DNA of 35,949 nt, taken from NCBI GenBank assembly GCA_004292785.1, contig RDXG01000230.1, forward strand, positions 1 through 35,949, written 5' to 3'. Positions 4,923 to 34,393 of the stretch are shown here, piece after piece. Numbering within the stretch: the stretch's first letter is position 1; each line of letters begins with the position of its first letter. A program made the position numbers and the translations under genes. This DNA is from Bacteroidota bacterium (GTDB taxonomy: Bacteria; Bacteroidota; Bacteroidia; Cytophagales; Thermoflexibacteraceae). The notes under the pieces were generated by a model that did not search any database, was not told where the DNA came from, and saw nothing but the letters and a program-made list of their open reading frames with translations.

Positions 4923-5217
4923 AATTTTTAAGTTAAATAATTTAGATGAGTGCTAGTTTTACTTTTTTTACACAATTTGATATAATTTTTCCTACAAAGA
5001 ATTATTAAAATATTGAAAAATATGCTACGCTTTGATTCGCAGGATAATTTGATATAGAAAATTAGGTTTTGATTAGACAAATATAATTTTTTCTTTTTTT
5101 TAGCTTTGTTTAAAAGAGAAAAAAATAATAAATTTGAATTTTAAAAAATTATTACAAAAATTAAAATTCACATCCTATATTGCAATATTGAACTTTATTG
5201 AGAATTTACAAAATTCT

Positions 5218-7269
5218 ATGAAAAAATTAATACTTTTAATCTGCTTTTTAGTACCAACTTATTTTGTTTTTTCGCAAAATAAATTGGAATTGGATAATCA
5301 GCATCAATTATTACGTTCTTCTTTGCCTGATTCTGCGAGGGTTAAAGTAATGAATAAAATTGCTTACCAATATCGTTCTGCCAATACTGATTCAGTGAAG
5401 TTTTATGCTGAAATGGTAATTTCTGTAGCCCAAAACAATGATTGTTGTCATGCCGAACTATCTTTTGCACTTGGTTTGTTGTCAGGACATTATAAACGCA
5501 AACAAGATTTTGCTGTAGCCAACGATTATTTGTTACAAGCCTTAGAAATTGATGAAAAAATGAATTATAAAGAAAACCTAATTTTTGATTATATCGATAT
5601 TGGAAATTTATATGTAGAAAGTTTAGACATAGACAAAGCCTTAGAATATTATGAAAAAGCACTTCAAATAGGCAAAGCAAGCAATGACCCCAAATTATAC
5701 GCCACCACTTTGTATAATTATGGAATTACTTGTGTTAAACTCAAAAAATATAGCGAAGCCGAAAAAATTTTTAACGAAGGAATTAACATCAATTTGCCTA
5801 AAGATATTTATCGTTTGGGCACACTTTTGTACGGCTTGGGCAGAGTCTATATGCTTTCTGATAGTCTGAAAAATTCGGATTTGGCTTTGGAACATACCCA
5901 AAAATCTCTCGAAATTTTTATCAAAGAAAATAATAACTCTTGGCAATGCAATAGTTATATCCAAATTGGTGATATTCATAGGTTAAAAAAAAATTATACG
6001 CTTGCTTTACAGCACTATCAAAAAGCATTGCAAATTTCGCAGTACAAAAAATATGCAGATTTGTCTATCGAAATTTATGACGGAATAAGTAAATTGTTTT
6101 ATGACCAAAAAGACATAGTAAAGGCTTACAAATATCAATTAAAATATAGTTTGGGTAGAGATTCTTTGGAACAACAAAGAAAAATATTTTCGATCAGCCA
6201 AACGCAACGAAGTTATCAGACTCGCAAAAGAAATAAAGAAATTTTGCTTGAAAAAGAACAAAAAGAAGAACAGCGTAATTTTTTTATTGGTATTGCCAGT
6301 TTTTTGGTTTTGTCTGCTATGGGTTTGAGTTGGACTATTTATCAAAAACTTAAATCCAACCAATTGCTCAACCAACAAAAAGAAGAAATAGAGTTGCAAA
6401 CTCAAAAATTACAAAGTACCAACCAACAATTAAATTCGGCATATAGCAACATTCACAGAAAAAATGCAGATTTAACTTCCTCTATTATTTATGCTCAACG
6501 TATTCAAAAAGCCATTTTGCCTTTCAAAGAACAGTTAGAAGAGTCTTTTGGCAAAGATAATTTTTTTGTGTTGTTTCAGCCCAAAGATATTGTTTCAGGT
6601 GATTTTTATTGGTTTGAGGAAATTCAAAATCTCAAGCAAAAAATAACTTTTGTAGCCGTAGCAGATTGCACAGGTCATGGCGTTCCTGGTGCGTTTATGT
6701 CCATGATTGGCAACCAATTATTGCACGAAATTATTATCAAAAACCAAACTCATGTACCAAACCTAATTTTGAACGAATTACACAAAGAAGTTCATAGAGT
6801 TTTGCGGCAAAAAGAAACCAATACCAAAGACGGAATGGACATTTGCCTGATTGCTATTCATAAAAACCAACTTTCAGACCGTTCTGAAATACTTACAAAA
6901 ATTGAATATTCAGGTGCTATGAATTCGCTTTTTTATGTGCAAAATTCAAAATTAGAAGAAATTAAAGCCACCAAACGTTCTATTGGCGGTTCTCAATTTG
7001 AAAGTGAACGTTTTTTTGAAAATAACGAAATTCTATTGGATCAAACCCCTTTGACTCTCTATTTATGTTCTGACGGTTATCAAGACCAATTTGGTGGAAA
7101 AGAAAATAGGAAATTTATGGTTAGACAAATGAAAAGGGTTTTTGGCGAAATTTCAGAAAAACCAATGCCCGAACAAGGAAAAATTTTGCTTCAAACCATT
7201 CAGAATTGGATTGCTGAAGGAAGAGAAAGACAAATTGATGACATGACCATCATGGGTTTGAAACTCTAA
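5218..7269 (+). CDS. TPR-repeat membrane protein with C-terminal SpoIIE/PP2C phosphatase domain
   Basis: ATG at 5218 is preferred over an in-frame TTG at 5134 because it begins directly with a signal peptide (KKLILLICFLVPTYFVFSQ), giving 683 residues. TPR repeats run from about 75 to 330 and a transmembrane helix lies near 355-375. A coiled coil leads into a SpoIIE-type PP2C domain with DCTGHGVPGA (D483), DGMDICLIAI, SDGYQDQFGG and a terminal DDMTIMGLKL. The fold and order match the copies at 263 and 28072. TAGCTTTG at 5101-5108 fits the -7 consensus TAnnTTTG but lacks a well-spaced -33 element. The protein is likely a periplasmic or lipid-proximal sensor controlling a cytoplasmic phosphatase; its substrate is unknown. 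Confidence 0.9.
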   Translation: MKKLILLICFLVPTYFVFSQNKLELDNQHQLLRSSLPDSARVKVMNKIAYQYRSANTDSVKFYAEMVISVAQNNDCCHAELSFALGLLSGHYKRKQDFAVANDYLLQALEIDEKMNYKENLIFDYIDIGNLYVESLDIDKALEYYEKALQIGKASNDPKLYATTLYNYGITCVKLKKYSEAEKIFNEGININLPKDIYRLGTLLYGLGRVYMLSDSLKNSDLALEHTQKSLEIFIKENNNSWQCNSYIQIGDIHRLKKNYTLALQHYQKALQISQYKKYADLSIEIYDGISKLFYDQKDIVKAYKYQLKYSLGRDSLEQQRKIFSISQTQRSYQTRKRNKEILLEKEQKEEQRNFFIGIASFLVLSAMGLSWTIYQKLKSNQLLNQQKEEIELQTQKLQSTNQQLNSAYSNIHRKNADLTSSIIYAQRIQKAILPFKEQLEESFGKDNFFVLFQPKDIVSGDFYWFEEIQNLKQKITFVAVADCTGHGVPGAFMSMIGNQLLHEIIIKNQTHVPNLILNELHKEVHRVLRQKETNTKDGMDICLIAIHKNQLSDRSEILTKIEYSGAMNSLFYVQNSKLEEIKATKRSIGGSQFESERFFENNEILLDQTPLTLYLCSDGYQDQFGGKENRKFMVRQMKRVFGEISEKPMPEQGKILLQTIQNWIAEGRERQIDDMTIMGLKL

Positions 7270-10116: not shown

Positions 10117-10794
10117 CTATTTTCTGGCAATAATGATCCAATAATTTGGAATTGATTCTATTTTTAACTGAAAAATATCTAGTTTTCCAAACATATTTCT
10201 AATTTCGTCTTCATCAAATTGATGAACACAATTTGGATTGCTGTTATTTTTGGCAACTGTCAAAACAATAAAACGTTTTGCCAAACGACAAATATCTTTT
10301 AGAAATGATTGATAATCAGGCAAATACTCGATGACCTGAATTGCAGTAACTACATCAAATTCAAAATATTGCAAAACCGCAAGATCGGTTAGTTTGTTGG
10401 GTATAATTTTCAAATGTCCAAATCCGCCTTTATAAACGGCTTGCAAATTTTGCACAAAACGGCTTTGATTTTCTACCACAGTCAAAGAAATAAAAGGAAA
10501 ATTATCCAAAAATTGCCAAACAAAAGTGCCTCTTCCGCTACCCAAATCCAACAAATTATCAGGTTGAATATTTTTGAGTAATTGAATTACTTTTGCATAC
10601 AAATTGAGTTCTTGGGCGTTGTAAAACACAGACAATTTTAAGCCATGCCGTTGCCCAATTTCTATTAACTCATTGATTTGTTGATCTTTAAGTTCAAATA
10701 AAACCTTGTTAAAAAGTTCGTTCATATCAGTGATAGTGCCTCTAACAAAGGCTGCTGCGAGGCGTTGATGCAAATGTGGCGCAAATATGGGCAT
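10117..10794 (-). CDS. Class I SAM-dependent methyltransferase
   Basis: Up to 225 residues. Motif I is LLDLGSGRGTFVWQF, the acidic strand is LTVVENQSRF, and VVTAIQVIEYLPDYQSFL lies near motif IV. The C-terminal part resembles methyltransferases that act on RNA ends or small molecules, but the substrate cannot be named. An internal ATG at 10725 (residue 24, MNELFNKV) may be the real start, because the first 23 residues look unlike a domain. The gene converges with the LysM gene with 36 bases between stops and diverges from dcd. Confidence 0.7.
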   Translation of the reverse strand: MPIFAPHLHQRLAAAFVRGTITDMNELFNKVLFELKDQQINELIEIGQRHGLKLSVFYNAQELNLYAKVIQLLKNIQPDNLLDLGSGRGTFVWQFLDNFPFISLTVVENQSRFVQNLQAVYKGGFGHLKIIPNKLTDLAVLQYFEFDVVTAIQVIEYLPDYQSFLKDICRLAKRFIVLTVAKNNSNPNCVHQFDEDEIRNMFGKLDIFQLKIESIPNYWIIIARK

Positions 10795-20657: not shown

Positions 20658-21098
20658 CTAAAAATTAAATAGTTTCTCTCCAAAAAAATGGATAAATACA
20701 GATAAAATTAATCCCCAAAAAACGGCACTTAAAAGCATATAAATCAATATTTTATGTTTTTTTTCGCCAAAACTTACCGCAATCAATGTTCCAACGATAG
20801 GACTAAACAAAAGCGGAGTAAGAAAAGCAACTCCAAAAATGCCATATTTTTGCCAAACTCTTACTATTTTTCTGTTTTTTGAAGTAAATAGCTTTTTGTT
20901 TTTTCCAAATTTTGCTTTTATTTTTTGTCTGAACTCATTTCCTAAAAAAGTTAATATGACTACGGTTGCCATCATTCCTGCTACTGTAAGCAAAGCTGTT
21001 AGCCCAATATTGAAGCCCAAAGACGTTCCTGTAAGGATTCCCAAAATAAATTTGAGCATACTTAGCCCAAAAACTGTGGCATATTTTATAATTTCCAT
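20658..21098 (-). CDS. Small integral membrane protein (possible Sm_multidrug_ex-like)
   Basis: The 146-residue product has four hydrophobic stretches (about 5-30, 35-55, 88-110 and 118-142) around a basic loop RQKIKAKFGKNKKLF. WQKYGIFGVAFLTPLLFSPIVGTLIAVSFG resembles the conserved loop of small DedA-like or COG2426-like membrane proteins. Function is unknown. It lies 37 bases upstream of the PLP enzyme gene and probably shares its transcript. Its upstream region contains the three stem-loop repeats. Confidence 0.65.
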   Translation of the reverse strand: MEIIKYATVFGLSMLKFILGILTGTSLGFNIGLTALLTVAGMMATVVILTFLGNEFRQKIKAKFGKNKKLFTSKNRKIVRVWQKYGIFGVAFLTPLLFSPIVGTLIAVSFGEKKHKILIYMLLSAVFWGLILSVFIHFFGEKLFNF

Positions 21099-21306: not shown

Positions 21307-21369
21307 TGGCAAGCCAATACTTTGTAAAACGTTCCTACCCAGAAGTTATACATCATAATAGGCTTGCCA
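21307..21369. repeat. Stem-loop repeat 1 with conserved CTACCCA core
   Basis: Outer stem TGGCAAGCC (21307-21315) pairs with GGCTTGCCA (21361-21369). The loop carries TTTGTAAAAC, then a small hairpin in which TTC (332-334) and GAA (342-344) enclose CTACCCA, extended by AAC/GTT around a bulged G. Its stem is unrelated to those of the other two copies. Confidence 0.8.
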
Positions 21370-21392
21370 GTTTTAGATAAATATTTGAATAA

Positions 21393-21447
21393 AAATCTAT
21401 TTTTTTTGTAAAACATTCCTACCCAGAAGTTTACGAAATTTAGATTT
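21393..21447. repeat. Stem-loop repeat 2 with conserved CTACCCA core
   Basis: Outer stem AAATCTA (21393-21399) pairs with TAGATTT (21441-21447). The loop again has TTTGTAAAAC followed by TTC-CTACCCA-GAA (21416-21428), and GTAAAAC pairs with GTTTAC with one bulge. The core differs from copy 1 by only a few bases. Confidence 0.8.
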
Positions 21448-21449
21448 GG

Positions 21450-21517
21450 AAATAACAAACCTAATTTAATTTGTATTTCCTACCCAGAAATGAATGTTTG
21501 AATTAGGTTTGTTATTT
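21450..21517. repeat. Stem-loop repeat 3 with conserved CTACCCA core
   Basis: A perfect 17-bp outer stem, AAATAACAAACCTAATT (21450-21466) with its complement at 21501-21517, surrounds TTTGTA and then ATTTC-CTACCCA-GAAAT (21475-21491), a perfect 5-bp inner hairpin. The inner stem bases differ from copies 1 and 2 while pairing is kept. Confidence 0.85.
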
Positions 21518-21541
21518 TAAGTTTTGAGAGAAAAATGAGAA

Positions 21542-21560
21542 CTAAACCAAATTGGTTTAG
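21542..21560. repeat. Perfect 19-base palindrome
   Basis: CTAAACCAA-A-TTGGTTTAG is a perfect inverted repeat centred on one base. It looks like a protein-binding operator more than a terminator because no T-run follows. It lies between the third stem-loop and the trmB terminator. Confidence 0.55.
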
Positions 21561-21629
21561 GGATTTTAAGATAAATTTTGAGTAAAAGAGATTACAAGTA
21601 GATTAGTTTTTTCATGTGTGATTGAGCCA

Positions 21630-21660
21630 AAAATGACATTGCATCTTGCAATGTCATTTT
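21630..21660. terminator. Bidirectional terminator at the end of trmB
   Basis: AAAATGACATTGCA (21630-21643) pairs perfectly with the 14 bases at 21647-21660 around a three-base loop, with T-runs on both sides. It ends trmB on the minus strand and could also end a plus-strand transcript from the stem-loop region. The gap 21099-21660 holds this terminator, the palindrome and three stem-loops, with no credible protein gene. Confidence 0.9.
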
Positions 21661-22317
21661 TTATTTTAAAAACCTGAAATTCAAATAGTTAATCTTAAAA
21701 CCTTTTGCCATAAAATGCTTTTCATAGCGCGTTTGAATCCCAAAATGATCGGCTAACATCACAGATTGATACAAGTCGTGAGTGTAAACCAAATCTGTTA
21801 TTTTCTGATCTTTTAAAACTTCCAAAGTATAATTAAAAAAAGGCAAATTGTCGGTTTTTAAGTGAATTTGGGCATTTTCTGTGCAAATATTTCTGTATTT
21901 TTCCAAAAAAACAGGATTGGTTAGCCTTCTGCGCACTCGGTTGGTTTGCAACTGCGGATCAGGAAAAACGATCCAAATTTGATCTACTTCGCCTTTTTCA
22001 AAGAATTTTTCAATGAAATGTATTTTGGTTCTTAAAAAACCAACATTTTTTAGATTTTTGTTCGTTGCATTTTCAATTCCTTGCCAAATTCGATCGCCTT
22101 TGATGTCGACGCCAATAAAATTTCGGTCTGGAAAAATACCGCCCAAACCTGTTGTATATTCTCCTGCGCCACAAGCCAATTCTAGCGTGATCGGTTGTTG
22201 GTTTTTGAAAAATTCTTTTTGCCAATTCCCTTTAATGGTTTCATAAATGGGTTTTTCGGGTTCAAGAATGTAAGGATTTTGTTTATTTTCCTCAAATTTT
22301 GCTAATTTTCTACGCAT
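21661..22317 (-). CDS. trmB: tRNA (guanine-N7-)-methyltransferase
   Basis: The 218-residue product has the TrmB motifs. SAM-binding motif I is LELACGAGEYTTGLG, followed by FIGVDIKGDRIWQG. IWIVFPDPQLQTNRVRRRLTNPVFL is the family signature near the active site, and IHLKTDN follows. TrmB methylates G46 in the tRNA variable loop to m7G. The length is normal for Bacteroidota TrmB. TAGGTTTG on the minus strand (22337-22344) fits a -7 element about 20 bases before the start, so it may be transcribed separately from the upstream SPOR-like gene 50 bases away. Confidence 0.95.
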   Translation of the reverse strand: MRRKLAKFEENKQNPYILEPEKPIYETIKGNWQKEFFKNQQPITLELACGAGEYTTGLGGIFPDRNFIGVDIKGDRIWQGIENATNKNLKNVGFLRTKIHFIEKFFEKGEVDQIWIVFPDPQLQTNRVRRRLTNPVFLEKYRNICTENAQIHLKTDNLPFFNYTLEVLKDQKITDLVYTHDLYQSVMLADHFGIQTRYEKHFMAKGFKINYLNFRFLK

Positions 22318-23114: not shown

Positions 23115-23312
23115 GTGTTCAAATTTTGCAGACAGAAATTTTTTGCTGTAAAATTGTCTGACAAAGGTCTGACTGAATGAGTTTTTTAACAGAAATTTTT
23201 TGCTGTAAAATTGTCCGACAAATGTCTGACTGAATGAGTTTTTTAAAAGTGTTCAAATTTTGCAAACAGAAATTTTTTGTTGTAAAATTGTCTGACTGAA
23301 TAAGTTTTTTTT
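23115..23312. repeat. Three tandem partial repeats in the divergent promoter region
   Basis: A unit of about 58-76 bases occurs three times (23115-23190, 23190-23247, 23249-23312). Shared blocks are AGTGTTCAAATTTTGCA (copies 1 and 3), ACAGAAATTTTTTG-TGTAAAATTGTC (all) and TGACTGAAT-AGTTTTTT (all). Within units, ACAG/CTGT and GTCCGACA/TGTCTGAC can form short hairpins. They fill the 371-base gap between the SPOR-like gene and the first paralogue at 23354. No gene is credible there. Confidence 0.8.
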
Positions 23313-23353: not shown

Positions 23354-24925
23354 ATGAAAATATTTTTTGTCATTTATTTTTTTCTGTTGTCCAACTTGCT
23401 TTTTGCACAATTAGAGGTCATCAAAAAACAGGAACTGCCTGTTATAAAAGCCATTGGTTCAAATTACAAATTTGTGCATTTGTCTGAAAAAGGCTTGTTT
23501 TTGATGCTAGAAAGCGAAGAAAGTTTGCGAAATTCTAAGCGTGAAGTTTTATTTACCAAATATGATACCGCTTTAAATAGGCTTTGGTCTGGTTTTATTT
23601 CCATCAAATATGCGTCTGTAATGCAACAACATTGTTTGGATAACAACGATTTGTATTACCTCATTTACCGTGAAGAATTTGAATACGACATTTTGAAAAT
23701 CAATTTGGAAACAGGTTTGATGGAAATTGTGCCTTTCGAAAAAATCATGGATTTGAAAATCACAGGCTTCGAAGCTGCACAGGGAGTCTTGTTTTTAGGC
23801 GGAATGGTTGATAATATGCCTGTGGTTTTGCAATATGACTACAAAAATAGTTCTGTGCCAAAAGTGCTTTCTTCTATTTTTCAGGTAAAAGCAAATTTGA
23901 ACGCTTTAGTTATTGACCAAAAAAGGGAATCGGTTTGCGTGTTTATGACAGAAAAAAATAATACCAATCCCGATTTATATTTTAATGTCTATGATTTGGA
24001 AGGCAAATTGATCAACAAATGGATCAAAAAAAGTAGTGATGAACAGGCTTTTTTGACTTTCAAAATGTTTGCGCCAAATTCGCAAGAGCAATATTTGTTT
24101 GGAACTTATGCCTTAGGAAACCGAAGCAAAGCACAAGGTTTTTATGTAAATCGTTTTTTTAACAAAGAAGAAAGTTACGTTTATTTTTATGATTTTAGTT
24201 ATTTGAACAATTTTTTCAATTATTTGGGCGAAAAAAGGAAAAATAATATGTTCGAAAAAATCAAAAAAAGGCAAAATAAAGGCAAAACTTTTATTCACGA
24301 TCAGCAATTATTTTTGCACGATTTGGTATTTGGTGAGGACAAAATTTATTTGACCGCAGAGTCTTACACAAGTTCTGTTCAAGACAATAGCACAAATTCA
24401 GCTTATCCTTCTTCTTTGGCAAATTCTAACCTTATTTATCGAGGGATGTCAGGTTTAAGGTCTTATCAGCCATATTCCTCATTGTTCAGTACCCCAAGCA
24501 GACGGCAAAATTTTGTGTATCGTTACAAAAATTCGGTAGTTTGTGGCTTTGACAAGACAGGAAAGTTGCTTTGGGACAACAGTTTTGAATTTGAAAACCT
24601 AAATTATCCGCAATTAATGCCCATTTTGCAAACAGGTTTTCAACAAGATTCGATCACGATGTTGCATTTGCAAGACAAAAAAATACTTTTTAAACAAACT
24701 AAAAACAGTTTTGCAATAGATAGTTTGCAGAAATTTGAGCCAAAATTGATCGCAGAAGGCGAAGATTTGAAAGATAGTGAAGACGAAAACATTGATTTTT
24801 GGTACGGAAATTATTTTTTGATGCACGGAATCCAAGACATCAAAGACGAGGAAAAACAACAAAGGCGAAAAGTTTTTTATTTGGCAAAAATTGGAAAAAC
24901 CAATGCCAAAAAAGAAGAAAAATAA
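23354..24925 (+). CDS. Secreted protein of unknown function, paralogue A of a tandem pair
   Basis: The 523-residue product has a signal peptide (1-19, SNLLFAQ). The rest is beta-rich, with repeated patterns such as LFLGGMVDNMPVVLQYDYKN, LYFNVYDLEGKLINKWIKK and VVCGFDKTGKLLWDNSFEFE. That spacing suggests a beta-propeller-like or repeated-strand fold, but no family is recognised. It is strikingly similar to the next gene from end to end, and both finish in KIGKTNAKKEEK. The segment around 343-395 is serine/asparagine-rich and unrelated between the two. It is probably periplasmic or outer-membrane associated. Confidence 0.75.
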   Translation: MKIFFVIYFFLLSNLLFAQLEVIKKQELPVIKAIGSNYKFVHLSEKGLFLMLESEESLRNSKREVLFTKYDTALNRLWSGFISIKYASVMQQHCLDNNDLYYLIYREEFEYDILKINLETGLMEIVPFEKIMDLKITGFEAAQGVLFLGGMVDNMPVVLQYDYKNSSVPKVLSSIFQVKANLNALVIDQKRESVCVFMTEKNNTNPDLYFNVYDLEGKLINKWIKKSSDEQAFLTFKMFAPNSQEQYLFGTYALGNRSKAQGFYVNRFFNKEESYVYFYDFSYLNNFFNYLGEKRKNNMFEKIKKRQNKGKTFIHDQQLFLHDLVFGEDKIYLTAESYTSSVQDNSTNSAYPSSLANSNLIYRGMSGLRSYQPYSSLFSTPSRRQNFVYRYKNSVVCGFDKTGKLLWDNSFEFENLNYPQLMPILQTGFQQDSITMLHLQDKKILFKQTKNSFAIDSLQKFEPKLIAEGEDLKDSEDENIDFWYGNYFLMHGIQDIKDEEKQQRRKVFYLAKIGKTNAKKEEK

Positions 24926-24940
24926 AATACATAAAATACA

Positions 24941-26509
24941 ATGAAAACACTTTTTTTAATATACTTTTTTTTGTTAAATCACCTACTTTTTGCACAAATA
25001 AATATGCTAAAAAGAGCAGAAATTCCATTTTCGAAGGTCGTTGGGGCTAATTATAGCCTTGTTCATTCTTCTGAAAAAGGCATACTTTTGATGCTTGAAA
25101 GTCAAGAAACCGAACTAACTTCCACAGAAAAAGAAATTATTTTTAGCAAATACGACAGCGCGCTAAATCCAATTTGGACAGCTACTATTTCGGTTGGTTA
25201 TTTGGCGATCATGCAAAAACATTGTTTAGATGGCGATGATTTGTTTTTTTTGATCAAAAACAAGAAAAACGATTATAACATTATCAAAATCAATTTGCAA
25301 AACGGTTTGATAAGTTTGCTCAACTACAAAAAATTGCTAGAAATAGACATCAGCCATTTTGAAGTTGCCAACGGAATCTTATTTTTGGGCGGAACGGTTG
25401 ATAATATGACCGTAGTTTTGCAATATGACTACAAAAATAGCAGATCGCCCAAAGTTTTGCCTTCCATTTGGCAGGAAAAAGTTAGTTTAAACACTTTGAT
25501 AGTTGATCAAAAAAAGGAGTCGGTGCTTGTCATTACTTCCGAAAAAAGTAATTCTAATTCAGATTTATTTTTTTATAGCTACGATCTAAACGGCAAACTT
25601 CTGAACAAATGGGTAAAAAAAGGGAATAATGAACACAGTTTTTTAGCTTTTAAAACTTTTGTGCCAAATTCTGAAGAGTTATATTTATTTGGAACTTATG
25701 CTTTGGGCAAACGCGACAAGGCGCAGGGATTTTATGTAAGTCGTTTTTCGAATGCAGAAGAAAATTTTACTTATTTCTATGATTTTAGTTCTTTGAACAA
25801 TTTTTTTAACCATTTGGGCGAAAAAGGAAAGGAAAAATTGTTGGAAAAAGTCAAAAATAAAGAGCAAAAAGGCAAAGTTTTTATTCATGAAGAAGATGTA
25901 TTTTTGCACGATTTGGAAATTAAAGAGGATAGAATTTATTTGACTGCTGAACTTTATGTAACTGATCTTGCAGGCTATGAACTTAATCCTGCTCAGACGA
26001 TGCAGAGGACAATAAATGAAAGTAAAATGAGTGGCGCAGATCGTTTTTACAAAACACTAGGCATGGATCAACATCAAAAGGCTATTTATGAAGGAAAGGC
26101 TTTGTACGCCTACAAAAGTGCAGTAATTTGTGGTTTTGACAAGACAGGAAAATTGCTTTGGGATAACGATTTTGATTATCAAAAATTGAAATATGTTGAA
26201 CTTTCGCCTGTTTTACAAAATATTTTTAGCCAAGATTCTATAACCATGTTGCATTGGCAGGATCAAAATTTGTTGCTCAAACGCAGTTATGGCAATTTTA
26301 CTTTGGATAGTTTGCAAAAATTCGAGCCAAAATTGCTTGACAAACACGAAAGAGTAGAATATGCTGAACGCGAAAAAATAATTTTTTGGTACAAAAACTA
26401 CTTTTTGATATACGGATTCCACGAAATTACGGACAAAGAAAACAAAAGGCGAAAAGTTTTTTATTTGGTAAAAATTGGAAAAACCAATGCCAAAAAAGAA
26501 GAAAAATAA
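24941..26509 (+). CDS. Secreted protein of unknown function, paralogue B of a tandem pair
   Basis: The 522-residue product has a signal peptide (1-19, NHLLFAQ) and starts 15 bases after paralogue A, so the two are co-transcribed. Matching blocks include LFLGGTVDNMTVVLQYDYKN, LYLFGTYALGKRDKAQGFYV and CGFDKTGKLLWDNDFDY. The pair arose by tandem duplication and then diverged. The segment around 340-395 (DLAGYELNPAQTMQ..., FYKTLGMDQHQK) has no counterpart in A, which points to a variable surface loop or partner-binding region. Function is unknown. Confidence 0.75.
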   Translation: MKTLFLIYFFLLNHLLFAQINMLKRAEIPFSKVVGANYSLVHSSEKGILLMLESQETELTSTEKEIIFSKYDSALNPIWTATISVGYLAIMQKHCLDGDDLFFLIKNKKNDYNIIKINLQNGLISLLNYKKLLEIDISHFEVANGILFLGGTVDNMTVVLQYDYKNSRSPKVLPSIWQEKVSLNTLIVDQKKESVLVITSEKSNSNSDLFFYSYDLNGKLLNKWVKKGNNEHSFLAFKTFVPNSEELYLFGTYALGKRDKAQGFYVSRFSNAEENFTYFYDFSSLNNFFNHLGEKGKEKLLEKVKNKEQKGKVFIHEEDVFLHDLEIKEDRIYLTAELYVTDLAGYELNPAQTMQRTINESKMSGADRFYKTLGMDQHQKAIYEGKALYAYKSAVICGFDKTGKLLWDNDFDYQKLKYVELSPVLQNIFSQDSITMLHWQDQNLLLKRSYGNFTLDSLQKFEPKLLDKHERVEYAEREKIIFWYKNYFLIYGFHEITDKENKRRKVFYLVKIGKTNAKKEEK

Positions 26510-28022: not shown

Positions 28023-28071
28023 TTTTTTATTAATAAATTTGTAATAAGAAAAAAAAAAGGTATGTTTGGAA

Positions 28072-30255
28072 ATGAAAAAAATTGGTTTACTAATCTTGTT
28101 TTGTTGGTTTTATAATATGCTTTTTGCGCAGCAAAGTATTCCCAAAACCATTGACAGTTTACAAAATTTGATAAAAAAAGGAATCGAGGACAGCAATAAA
28201 GTGATGCGTTTGTCCGAACTATCCTATTTTTATCGAGGTTTTAAGCCCGATTCTTCTATGCTGTTAGCGGAGCAAAATTTGGAGCTTTCCAAAAAACTAA
28301 ATTATATAAAAGGGTTTGCTTTGTCTTTTCTTGATGTGGCGGGTGCTTTTTTGTTTTTGGATAACTATAATCAAGCCATTTATTATTGCAAACAAGCTCT
28401 TACTTATTCCGATCAAATTCCAGAAAAATATGTTAAAGGTATGATTTTGAATATGTTAGGCAGGGTTTATTTGACACAAAGCGATTACAAAAAAGCCCTA
28501 CAATATTTTTTGGAAGCCTTAAAAGTGCGCGAAAAATGTGGAGACCAGTTGGGAGTAGCACAAACTTACAATTATATTGCAACTGTTTATGACCAACAAG
28601 ACAACAAAGTTTTGGCATTAGAATATCACGAAAAAGCCTTAAAAATTAGAGAAAAATATAACGATCATCAGGGAATAGCACAAAGTTTGAACAATATTGG
28701 CAAAATGTATCGCTTTAAAAAAGAATACGAAAAAGCCTTAGAATATTTCCAAAATGCCTATAAAATGGACAATATTCTTAAATATCATTACGGCAGAGCC
28801 ATCGATTTGAACAATATTGCAAGTATTTATGTCCAACAAAATAAAAAACAAGAAGCGTTAAAAATATACGAGCAAGTGTTGGCGTTGCGAGACTCGCTTA
28901 AAGACGGCAAAGGAACAGTTTATACCTTAATTGCTTTGGCTCAATTACAATTATCTCTAAATAGTGTAGAAATAGCCAAAAAGCACGCAGAACAAGCCGA
29001 AAAACTTTCAGAAATTTATAATTTGCCCAACGAATTACAAGATATTTATTTCATTTTGTCCAAATGTTATGACTATGAAAACAATATCGCGCAGGCATTT
29101 CTGTTTCATAAAATGGGAACACAACTTAAAGATAGTTTGTTTAACATGGAAAAAAGTAAAATTTCTGCAAATTTACAATCTGCTTATGATTTAGAAAAAA
29201 AAGAAGCCCAAATAGATTTACTTTACAAAGACAAAACCATTCAAGATCAAAGCAATAGTTTTAAACTTAATATTGCCCTTCTGATATTTTTGGCTATGAG
29301 TATTATTGCTTTTCTGTTGTGGAAAAATTATCGTAAAAGTGTGATAATCAATGAACAGCTAGTGTTGCAAAAAAATCAAATTACAGAAAAAAACGAAGAA
29401 CTTTTTCAGGCAAACGAAGAACTTACCATCAATTTGGATATTATTAATAAACAAAGGCAAGAAATATTACAAAAAAATAACAATATTACCGACAGTATCA
29501 ATTATGCCAAACGAATTCAGATGGCAATTTTACCTTTGGAAGAAGATTTTGAAAACGTTTTTGGTAAAGACAATTTTTTTATTATTTATGAACCCAAAAA
29601 TATTGTTTCAGGTGATTTTTATTGGCTTCATCTTGAAGGTAACACAACCATGCTTGCAGTTGTGGATTGTACAGGTCATGGCGTTCCTGGTGCTTTGATG
29701 AGTATGATTGGCAGAGAATCTTTGGATAAAATTGTCAGTGATCAGAAAGACTTAATGCCTAATCAAATATTGACTTTGTTAGACATTCATGTACGTCAAA
29801 TTTTGAAACAAAATAGCACCAAAACCAATGACGGCATGGATATTTGTTTGGTTCAAATTGATAAAAAAGAGAACCAAATTGCATATTCTGGTGCTAAAAT
29901 ACCATTAATTTATGTACAAGACCATCAATTATTTAAAATTAAAGGAAATTCCTTTTCTATTGGTGGAAAAAAAATTGGCAAAGAAGAAAGTTTTACTACA
30001 CATATTATAGAACTAGACAAAATGGTTCAGGAAGTAGTTTTTTATATGTCTTCTGATGGTTATCAAGACCAATTTGGAGGCAAAGAAGGCAGAAAATTTA
30101 TGAGTAAAGCCTTCAAAGAACTATTAGACAATATTCACATCGATAATATGAAAGAACAAAAATATATTTTAGAAAAAACATTTGTTGAGTGGAAAAATAA
30201 AAGCGATCAAACAGATGATATCACTGTTGTTGGCATTAAAATAAACTCATTTTAA
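28072..30255 (+). CDS. TPR-repeat membrane protein with C-terminal SpoIIE/PP2C phosphatase domain
   Basis: ATG at 28072 begins the signal peptide KKIGLLILFCWFYNMLFAQ; a TTG six bases earlier is in frame but less likely. The 727 residues contain about eight TPR units (60-330). A transmembrane helix lies near 401-417, then a long coiled coil (about 425-475) and a SpoIIE-type domain. Motifs are DCTGHGVPGA (D532), DGMDICLVQI, SDGYQDQFGG and DDITVVGIKI. The architecture matches the copies at 263 and 5218. TAAATTTG at 28034-28041 fits the -7 consensus, without a well-spaced -33. A MerR-type gene follows after 105 bases. Confidence 0.9.
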   Translation: MKKIGLLILFCWFYNMLFAQQSIPKTIDSLQNLIKKGIEDSNKVMRLSELSYFYRGFKPDSSMLLAEQNLELSKKLNYIKGFALSFLDVAGAFLFLDNYNQAIYYCKQALTYSDQIPEKYVKGMILNMLGRVYLTQSDYKKALQYFLEALKVREKCGDQLGVAQTYNYIATVYDQQDNKVLALEYHEKALKIREKYNDHQGIAQSLNNIGKMYRFKKEYEKALEYFQNAYKMDNILKYHYGRAIDLNNIASIYVQQNKKQEALKIYEQVLALRDSLKDGKGTVYTLIALAQLQLSLNSVEIAKKHAEQAEKLSEIYNLPNELQDIYFILSKCYDYENNIAQAFLFHKMGTQLKDSLFNMEKSKISANLQSAYDLEKKEAQIDLLYKDKTIQDQSNSFKLNIALLIFLAMSIIAFLLWKNYRKSVIINEQLVLQKNQITEKNEELFQANEELTINLDIINKQRQEILQKNNNITDSINYAKRIQMAILPLEEDFENVFGKDNFFIIYEPKNIVSGDFYWLHLEGNTTMLAVVDCTGHGVPGALMSMIGRESLDKIVSDQKDLMPNQILTLLDIHVRQILKQNSTKTNDGMDICLVQIDKKENQIAYSGAKIPLIYVQDHQLFKIKGNSFSIGGKKIGKEESFTTHIIELDKMVQEVVFYMSSDGYQDQFGGKEGRKFMSKAFKELLDNIHIDNMKEQKYILEKTFVEWKNKSDQTDDITVVGIKINSF

Positions 30256-32848: not shown

Positions 32849-34393
32849 ATGATTTCTAAACCAAGTATTTTTGACCCTGCAAAAAAATTACGTAATGCTT
32901 ATCTTATTGCGCTTACTTTGCTAGGCTTATTGGTCATTTTTGGTCAATATTTTATCAAACAATTCCTAGAAGATCAAAAATCGGATGGCAGAGTGATCAA
33001 TATTGCAGGCAGACAAAGAATGTTAAGCCAACGTTTGACCAAATGTCTCCTCATTTTGAGCATTTCCACCGATTCTGTAGAAATTAAGAAAAGGCATAAA
33101 GAACTCAAAGAGGTTTTTATGCTTTGGAAAAAATCGCATATTGCTTTGCAAAAAGGCGACTCTTTGCTACAAATTCCCGCTAATTTTAACAGTGATTCGG
33201 TAAAAACTGCCTTTCAAAAAATTTCTCAAAACCATGAGATCATGTTGGAATCGGCTCGTAAAATTATCGAAAATTTTGGAAAAACTAATTTTAAAGAAAT
33301 TATTGCCCAAGAATTAACTCATATTTTAGAAAATGAAGGCATTTTTTTGAAAGGTATGAACCAAATTGTAGAAATTTATGACCAAGAGTCTGGACAAAAA
33401 GTGCTTTTTTTGGAAAAAATACAAATTGTTTTAACTATTACTACGATTCTGATCCTATTTTTGGAGGGAATGTTTATTTTTAGACCCAATGTTAAAAATT
33501 TGTCTAATTATATAAAAGTTCTCGAACAGAATGATGCGTTAAAAGCAGCAGAAGAAGAACTTAAACAAAACCTAGAAGAAATTAAACAAATCAATGAAAA
33601 AATGATTTTTTCTAAAATTCAGCTAGATAAAGTTTACAAAAATTTGATGTCAAGTATAAATTATGCCAAACGAATTCAGGACGCAATCTTGCCTTTGTCT
33701 GTCAATATAGAAGAAGGTCTTGGTGAACATTTTATCATTTTTCGCCCAAAAGATGTGGTAAGTGGCGATTTTTATTGGTTTGCAAGCCTTGATAATCAAT
33801 GTATGATTTCCGTAATTGATTGCACAGGACATGGCATACCTGGTGCTTTTATGTCTTTGATCGCCAACGATTTGCTTAACCAAATTATTTTTCTCAAAAA
33901 AATAACAGACCCCGAACAAATTTTAACACAGCTAGATACTTATTTGTCTTTGGTTTTCAAACAAGAAAATACCATTAACCACAACAGCATGGATTTGGCT
34001 TTTGCAGTGATTACAGATAGGAATTTGGTTGAAATTTCTGCGGTCAAAAGTTCTATTTTTTATGTTCAAAATAATGAATTGCAACAAATAAAAGGAAGCC
34101 CTTTTCCTATTGGAGGTGAAGGAATGAAAACAAGAACAAACAAAAATTTTACTAAACATCAAATTTTTGTGGGCGAAGGAACGACATTTTATATGTTTTC
34201 AGATGGTTTTCAGGATCAATTTGGCGGAAAATATGGCAAAAAATTTATGAAACAAAATTTTAGAAAACTTTTTACTCAAATTCATACGCAAAGTATGGAA
34301 GAGCAAAAGTTATTTTTAGAAAATAGCCTAGATTTTTGGAAACAAGATTATGCACAAACTGACGATATTACTGTTTTGGGTTTCAGAATATAA
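32849..34393 (+). CDS. Membrane sensor with PilJ-like domain and SpoIIE/PP2C phosphatase
   Basis: The 514-residue product has two transmembrane helices (about 18-36 and 192-210). They flank a periplasmic helical domain that begins GRVINIAGRQRMLSQRLTKC, the signature of the PilJ/NarX-type sensor domain. A coiled coil follows, then a SpoIIE domain with DCTGHGIPGAFMSL (D324), SDGFQDQFGG and DDITVLGFRI. The other copies read DGMDI where this one has NSMDLAF, so that loop may work differently. It replaces the TPR sensor of its three relatives. The substrate and ligand are unknown. Confidence 0.9.
   Translation: MISKPSIFDPAKKLRNAYLIALTLLGLLVIFGQYFIKQFLEDQKSDGRVINIAGRQRMLSQRLTKCLLILSISTDSVEIKKRHKELKEVFMLWKKSHIALQKGDSLLQIPANFNSDSVKTAFQKISQNHEIMLESARKIIENFGKTNFKEIIAQELTHILENEGIFLKGMNQIVEIYDQESGQKVLFLEKIQIVLTITTILILFLEGMFIFRPNVKNLSNYIKVLEQNDALKAAEEELKQNLEEIKQINEKMIFSKIQLDKVYKNLMSSINYAKRIQDAILPLSVNIEEGLGEHFIIFRPKDVVSGDFYWFASLDNQCMISVIDCTGHGIPGAFMSLIANDLLNQIIFLKKITDPEQILTQLDTYLSLVFKQENTINHNSMDLAFAVITDRNLVEISAVKSSIFYVQNNELQQIKGSPFPIGGEGMKTRTNKNFTKHQIFVGEGTTFYMFSDGFQDQFGGKYGKKFMKQNFRKLFTQIHTQSMEEQKLFLENSLDFWKQDYAQTDDITVLGFRI

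Follow-up and report, generated by a model that had tools for sequence, protein, structure and literature searches.

A structured, non-coding element that belongs to no known family was identified in the genome of a Bacteroidota bacterium, where three hairpins carry one common module on outer stems that pair and are unrelated in sequence. The array lies in the window (the whole stretch of DNA that was analysed, 35,949 nt), and a strong intrinsic terminator comes after it on the + strand. Read in the simplest way, the element is an sRNA of ~360 nt that offers CUACCCA three times, probably one that is specific to this species, belongs to a known general kind and carries a new module. The best explanation of its anatomy, which is put forward tentatively, is that of a multivalent decoy RNA that may be RsmZ-like in logic.

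Anatomy of the three hairpins

A sequence-only reading of this DNA had described three stem-loops with unrelated outer stems of 9, 7 and 17 bp and a common CTACCCA core, and all three were confirmed in the positions given to them. The core is the centre of a 13-mer, TTCCTACCCAGAA (TTC-CTACCCA-GAA), which is present in three exact copies, each with TTTGTA on its 5' side. The features of the array are:

21307..21369, + strand: hairpin 1, with a 9-bp outer stem, an asymmetric internal loop with TTTGTA, an inner stem of TGTA/TACA, AAC/GTT and TTC/GAA, and the loop CTACCCA (fold, arm shuffle)
21321..21326, + strand: TTTGTA before core 1, 5-nt spacer to the core
21332..21344, + strand: core copy 1, TTCCTACCCAGAA, exact match
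21393..21447, + strand: hairpin 2, with a 7-bp outer stem, an inner stem of GTA/TAC, AAC/GTT and TTC/GAA, and the loop CTACCCA (fold, arm shuffle)
21405..21410, + strand: TTTGTA before core 2, 5-nt spacer to the core
21416..21428, + strand: core copy 2, TTCCTACCCAGAA, exact match
21449..21518, + strand: hairpin 3, with a 17-bp outer stem (21 pairs with wobbles), a short inner stem ATTTC/GAAAT and the loop CTACCCA (fold, arm shuffle)
21470..21475, + strand: TTTGTA before core 3, 1-nt spacer to the core
21477..21489, + strand: core copy 3, TTCCTACCCAGAA, exact match

The outer stems are Watson-Crick paired and mutually unrelated in sequence, namely TGGCAAGCC/GGCTTGCCA in hairpin 1 (21307-21315/21361-21369, a perfect 9 bp), AAATCTA/TAGATTT in hairpin 2 (21393-21399/21441-21447, a perfect 7 bp) and AAATAACAAACCTAATT/AATTAGGTTTGTTATTT in hairpin 3 (21450-21466/21501-21517, a perfect 17 bp). 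The unit runs from an outer-stem arm whose sequence is free through 3-5 nt, TTTGTA, 1-5 nt, TTC, CTACCCA, GAA and 11-16 nt to the other arm of the outer stem.

The innermost three pairs (TTC/GAA) are invariant across the three copies, and beneath them are AAC/GTT and a bulged purine in copies 1 and 2, and UA/UG without a bulge in copy 3. The earlier statement that the inner stem bases change while pairing is kept is therefore correct below TTC/GAA but not for TTC/GAA itself. Furthermore, because copies 1 and 2 share 96% identity over 27 nt, the inner stems amount to effectively two independent ones, and the three units are partly dependent evidence. In copy 3 the 13-mer and TTTGTA are exactly preserved, while all the surrounding sequence is different.

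The copies are spaced 84 and 61 nt apart, and stop codons are present in every frame of the array. A spacing of 61 nt is indivisible by three, and together with the stops this rules out a protein-coding repeat; the array is non-coding.

Fold energies and chance controls

Folding as + strand RNA gave -20.7 kcal/mol for hairpin 1 (z -5.55), -10.7 kcal/mol for hairpin 2, the weakest of the three (z -2.66), and -26.4 kcal/mol for hairpin 3 (z -7.09). When the arms were shuffled and the cores held fixed, the native energy was reached in 0/1000, 12/1000 and 0/1000 cases for hairpins 1, 2 and 3, respectively. Swapping arms between copies gave -4.6 to -12.1 kcal/mol, compared with -19.9, -9.6 and -25.3 kcal/mol for the native arms, and no 5' arm paired well with any 3' arm but its own. 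Because swapped arms wreck the folds, pairing has been kept while the stem sequence differs, and both controls support the earlier suggestion of selection on structure.

Stems of 9 bp or more within 45 nt occur at 2% of random places in the window, and a 17-bp stem occurred at 0 of 3000 such places. In copy 2, the outer stem of 7 bp would not be significant alone (23% of random places), and this copy leans on its inner helix. The whole 381-nt stretch had an RNA fold z of -6.7, and the hairpins form under DNA parameters too (z -6.9).

In the 3.7 Mb genome, the exact 13-mer occurs three times, all in the array. A complex 13-mer with three spaced copies was found at two further places in 1.17 Mb of this genome, codon-periodic repeats excluded, and both are near-identical tandem repeats. 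No second array of hairpins with unrelated stems was detected in this 1.17 Mb, where the other hairpin arrays proved to be either leucine-rich-repeat-like coding sequence or tandem repeats whose stems are identical.

Several other repeats were observed in this genome. An interspersed, partly tandem and near-palindromic repeat with an element like TGTCCGACAAA(T/G)GTCTGAC is present at 23132-23290 of the window, at 227-400 of L109 and near position 1528 (approximate) of L066; its unit is 57 nt in the window and 53-54 nt in L109, and it recurs at several places in the genome. L093 (G000:C49) contains, at 10344-10470, a tandem repeat of ~40-42 nt in three copies, with GGCAAACAG(G/A)AAT(G/A)TTTGC hairpins that have identical stems. 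A long run of 66-nt (22-residue) repeats at 4440-5480 of L119 (G000:C180) is leucine-rich-repeat-like coding sequence.

Genomic location, strand and terminator

The array is located in a 562-nt gap between two genes that are both on the - strand, which leaves + as the orphan strand at this place. The neighbouring features are:

20658..21098, - strand: flanking gene for a putative small multi-drug export-like protein (PF06695, profile match just below the cut-off)
21542..21560, strand not assigned: extra short hairpin CTAAACCAAATTGGTTTAG, without the common core (fold)
21629..21665, + strand: intrinsic terminator with a 15-bp stem, a 3-nt loop and a T-rich tail, the proposed 3' end of a + strand RNA (terminator scan)
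21661..22317, - strand: flanking gene for a TrmB-type tRNA methyltransferase (PF02390, 98 bits)

The hairpins (21307-21518) are ~210-420 nt upstream of the export-like gene, which is kept in all 13 of the 13 family genomes. Elsewhere in the 36 kb window there are four SpoIIE-type phosphatase proteins (263-2281, 5134-7269, 28066-30255 and 32849-34393), three of which have TPR repeats and the fourth a PilJ-type domain, and two adjacent proteins of 523 and 522 aa (23354-26509, +) that had no Pfam matches.

The + strand is favoured, although not proven, by the folding predictions and the terminator. Terminator-like sites number three in the region, compared with 0.2 expected. Helix 3 has 27 pairs on + and 23 on -, as G-U wobbles lengthen the + form, and copy 2 folds better than its shuffles on + only (z -2.66, compared with -0.58 on -). 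All three predicted loops are open and of 7 nt on +, whereas extra pairs reduce them to 5 nt on -. Hairpin 1 alone is stabler on - (-25.8, compared with -20.9 on +), and the whole stretch, compared with shuffles, folds equally on either strand or as DNA. Promoters of Bacteroidota carry the boxes TTTG and TAnnTTTG (PMC7366714); the promoter scan found no clear promoter of this type upstream of the array on +, and the - strand has a TAnnTTTG box at 21463.

The sequence-only reading had left the choice between an RNA motif, a single-stranded-DNA recombination site and a protein-binding array. The RNA motif is the best supported of these, because the terminator is on +, wobbles lengthen helix 3 on + and the open 7-nt loops are predicted only on +, while neither single-stranded-DNA recombination nor a protein array on double-stranded DNA gained support.

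Searches for homologues

A covariance model built from the three inner modules recovered the three copies in their own genome and nothing besides them in 195 genomes of the order (E <= 0.05) or in 395 genomes of the class (E <= 0.02). These large searches used strict filters, which diverged forms could escape, and genome sets with no second member of the same genus. The sole match in 391 order genomes (G753, 33.2 bits) is inside a 552-aa reading frame and is attributed to chance, since 391 genomes should by chance yield a match at E 0.02 per genome. Three weak matches in the 13 family genomes at E <= 5 (22.8-23.6 bits, one of them in the array's own genome) were rejected, as none has the full core. 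Among GTDB contigs the exact pattern was matched five times, never with the hairpin architecture: four of these matches resemble protein-coding repeats, and the fifth is archaeal and has no hairpins. The pattern had no match in viral contigs, plasmid records or phage records, and BLAST of the intergenic region against relatives returned short AT-rich matches only.

No CTACCCA hairpins were found beside the flanking genes in family members. The sequence-only reading had named homologous regions without the core as evidence that would count against it, and these family loci come close to that, but their gene order is not conserved and they are not strictly homologous. Since the family, order, class, GTDB, viral, plasmid and phage searches yielded no homologue, the element appears restricted to one genome, as far as these searches reach.

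Proposed role and alternative explanations

As a tentative best explanation, the region would encode a + strand non-coding RNA of ~340-370 nt, with its 3' end at the terminator at 21629-21665. This RNA would fold into three independent hairpins, each of them a pedestal whose sequence-free outer stem lifts an identical recognition module, UUUGUA...UUC-CUACCCA-GAA. One kind of partner may bind the module, and the three copies would then act as a multivalent decoy that titrates it. The invariance extends from the loop to its three closing pairs and to UUUGUA, which favours a protein partner somewhat over simple antisense pairing with UGGGUAG in target mRNAs; judged from anatomy, a decoy role with such a partner is tentatively preferred. 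CsrA/RsmE (PF02599), RRM proteins and Hfq were not detected in this 89.9%-complete genome, in which the positive controls of the CsrA/RsmE search were detected, and none of the three provides a candidate RNA-binding partner.

Three open C-rich loops of 7 nt would also suit a base-pairing sRNA of the LhrC type, with CUACCCA as redundant seeds for UGGGUAG near the start codons of target mRNAs, and they resemble the redundant UCCC motifs of LhrC (PMC4132741). Of 748 start regions, 2 contain UGGGUAG, compared with an anagram average of 0.5, but because 11 of the 105 anagrams are found at least as often, such sites are not clearly enriched near starts. Such a seed would be short at 7 nt and would not need the invariant closing pairs or UUUGUA, and with Hfq not detected this reading is considered unlikely. 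Alternatively, the array might act in cis as a leader or processing element, with UGGGUAG loops, of a - strand transcript, between trmB and the export-like gene. The orientation of both neighbours, the distance of the array from the export-like gene, the - strand box at 21463 and the good folding of two of the three hairpins on - are consistent with this possibility, which is nevertheless quite unlikely, given that relatives keep the export-like gene without such an array beside it, that copy 2 on - is no better than its shuffles, and that terminator-like sites separate trmB from the array.

Conserved elements on variable paired stems are a known layout of single-stranded-DNA hairpin sites. 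The array has this layout and its hairpins form with DNA parameters, so its loop might be a recognition or nick site in recombination, replication or transposition; however, no recombinase, relaxase, Rep or transposase was found among the 20 window proteins examined, and there are no further core copies in the genome and no plasmid, phage or viral-contig matches, which makes a DNA site highly improbable. It is also possible, but very unlikely, that the array is a lineage-specific relic without present function, in which duplicated cores happen to sit in AT-rich inverted repeats. Its presence in one genome only and the near identity of copies 1 and 2, as a recent duplication predicts, point in this direction, whereas three different and perfectly pairing outer stems are not obtainable by simple duplication, and copy 3 retains the exact 13-mer and TTTGTA amid wholly different surroundings.

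Comparison with known systems

The sequence-only reading had not recognised in the core any known riboswitch, ribozyme, attC or REP element, and a search of the whole window against Rfam 15 gave no match above the gathering cut-off. Sub-threshold matches to the array were at chance level, and a below-cut-off match to rli61 (21581-21666) consists of the terminator and AT-rich sequence.

Elements such as attC and REP/BIME form imperfect hairpins with stems that differ in sequence yet still pair, as in the array. The array differs from them in being a single locus, in having its conserved part in the loop and in that neither an integrase nor a RAYT is among the examined proteins; for attC or IS200/IS605-like elements, no cognate enzyme was found among the 20 window proteins and no copy of the exact core elsewhere in the genome. 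Mimicry of an anticodon loop was also considered, as the loop has 7 nt with U at its second position, but it has C at position 37. A complementarity of 7 nt to a conserved part of 23S rRNA lies within chance.

RNA-based regulation in Bacteroidota is poorly charted, and Bacteroides is without obvious Hfq or ProQ (PMC7366714). GibS of Bacteroides thetaiotaomicron is an intergenic sRNA that is largely unfolded and conserved in the genus (PMC7366714). The array shares with GibS-like Bacteroidota sRNAs an AT-rich intergenic position, an intrinsic terminator and a lineage in which neither Hfq nor ProQ is obvious (PMC7366714), but it is strongly folded and was found in one genome. The LhrC sRNAs of Listeria have redundant C-rich motifs, CUCCC...UUUU in two loops and a linker, and are encoded by five gene copies (PMC4132741). 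Their three redundant target-binding motifs per sRNA are matched here by three identical 7-nt loops that are predicted to be unpaired on +, whereas the array is a single locus with CUACCCA in three hairpin loops.

The array is not a member of the Csr/Rsm family, as it has no GGA loops and CsrA was not detected; its + loops are CUACCCA rather than A(N)GGA, the sole GGA on - straddles loop and stem, and a CsrA sponge on the - strand (AGGA) was ruled out because CsrA was not detected. Long sequence-free outer stems and the lack of a homologue further distinguish it. A few identical loop motifs on stems, followed by a rho-independent terminator, are the established layout of RsmZ (PMC4005645), and the array resembles RsmZ/CsrB in having several hairpins with one motif each, stems closed by C-G and then U-A, a subsequent intrinsic terminator and a multivalent design (PMC4005645).

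It is doubtful, although conceivable, that the array represents a multivalent decoy RNA of a new class, from a Bacteroidota lineage without detected CsrA or Hfq, and that its sequence-free stems would display UUUGUA/UUC-CUACCCA-GAA and titrate an undescribed RNA-binding regulator. One recognition module on three unrelated stems is a ready-made bait for a partner pull-down. If the partner is not a new RNA-binding regulator, the element would be one more species-specific sRNA; if it is, the element would be a Csr-like titration system made from different parts.
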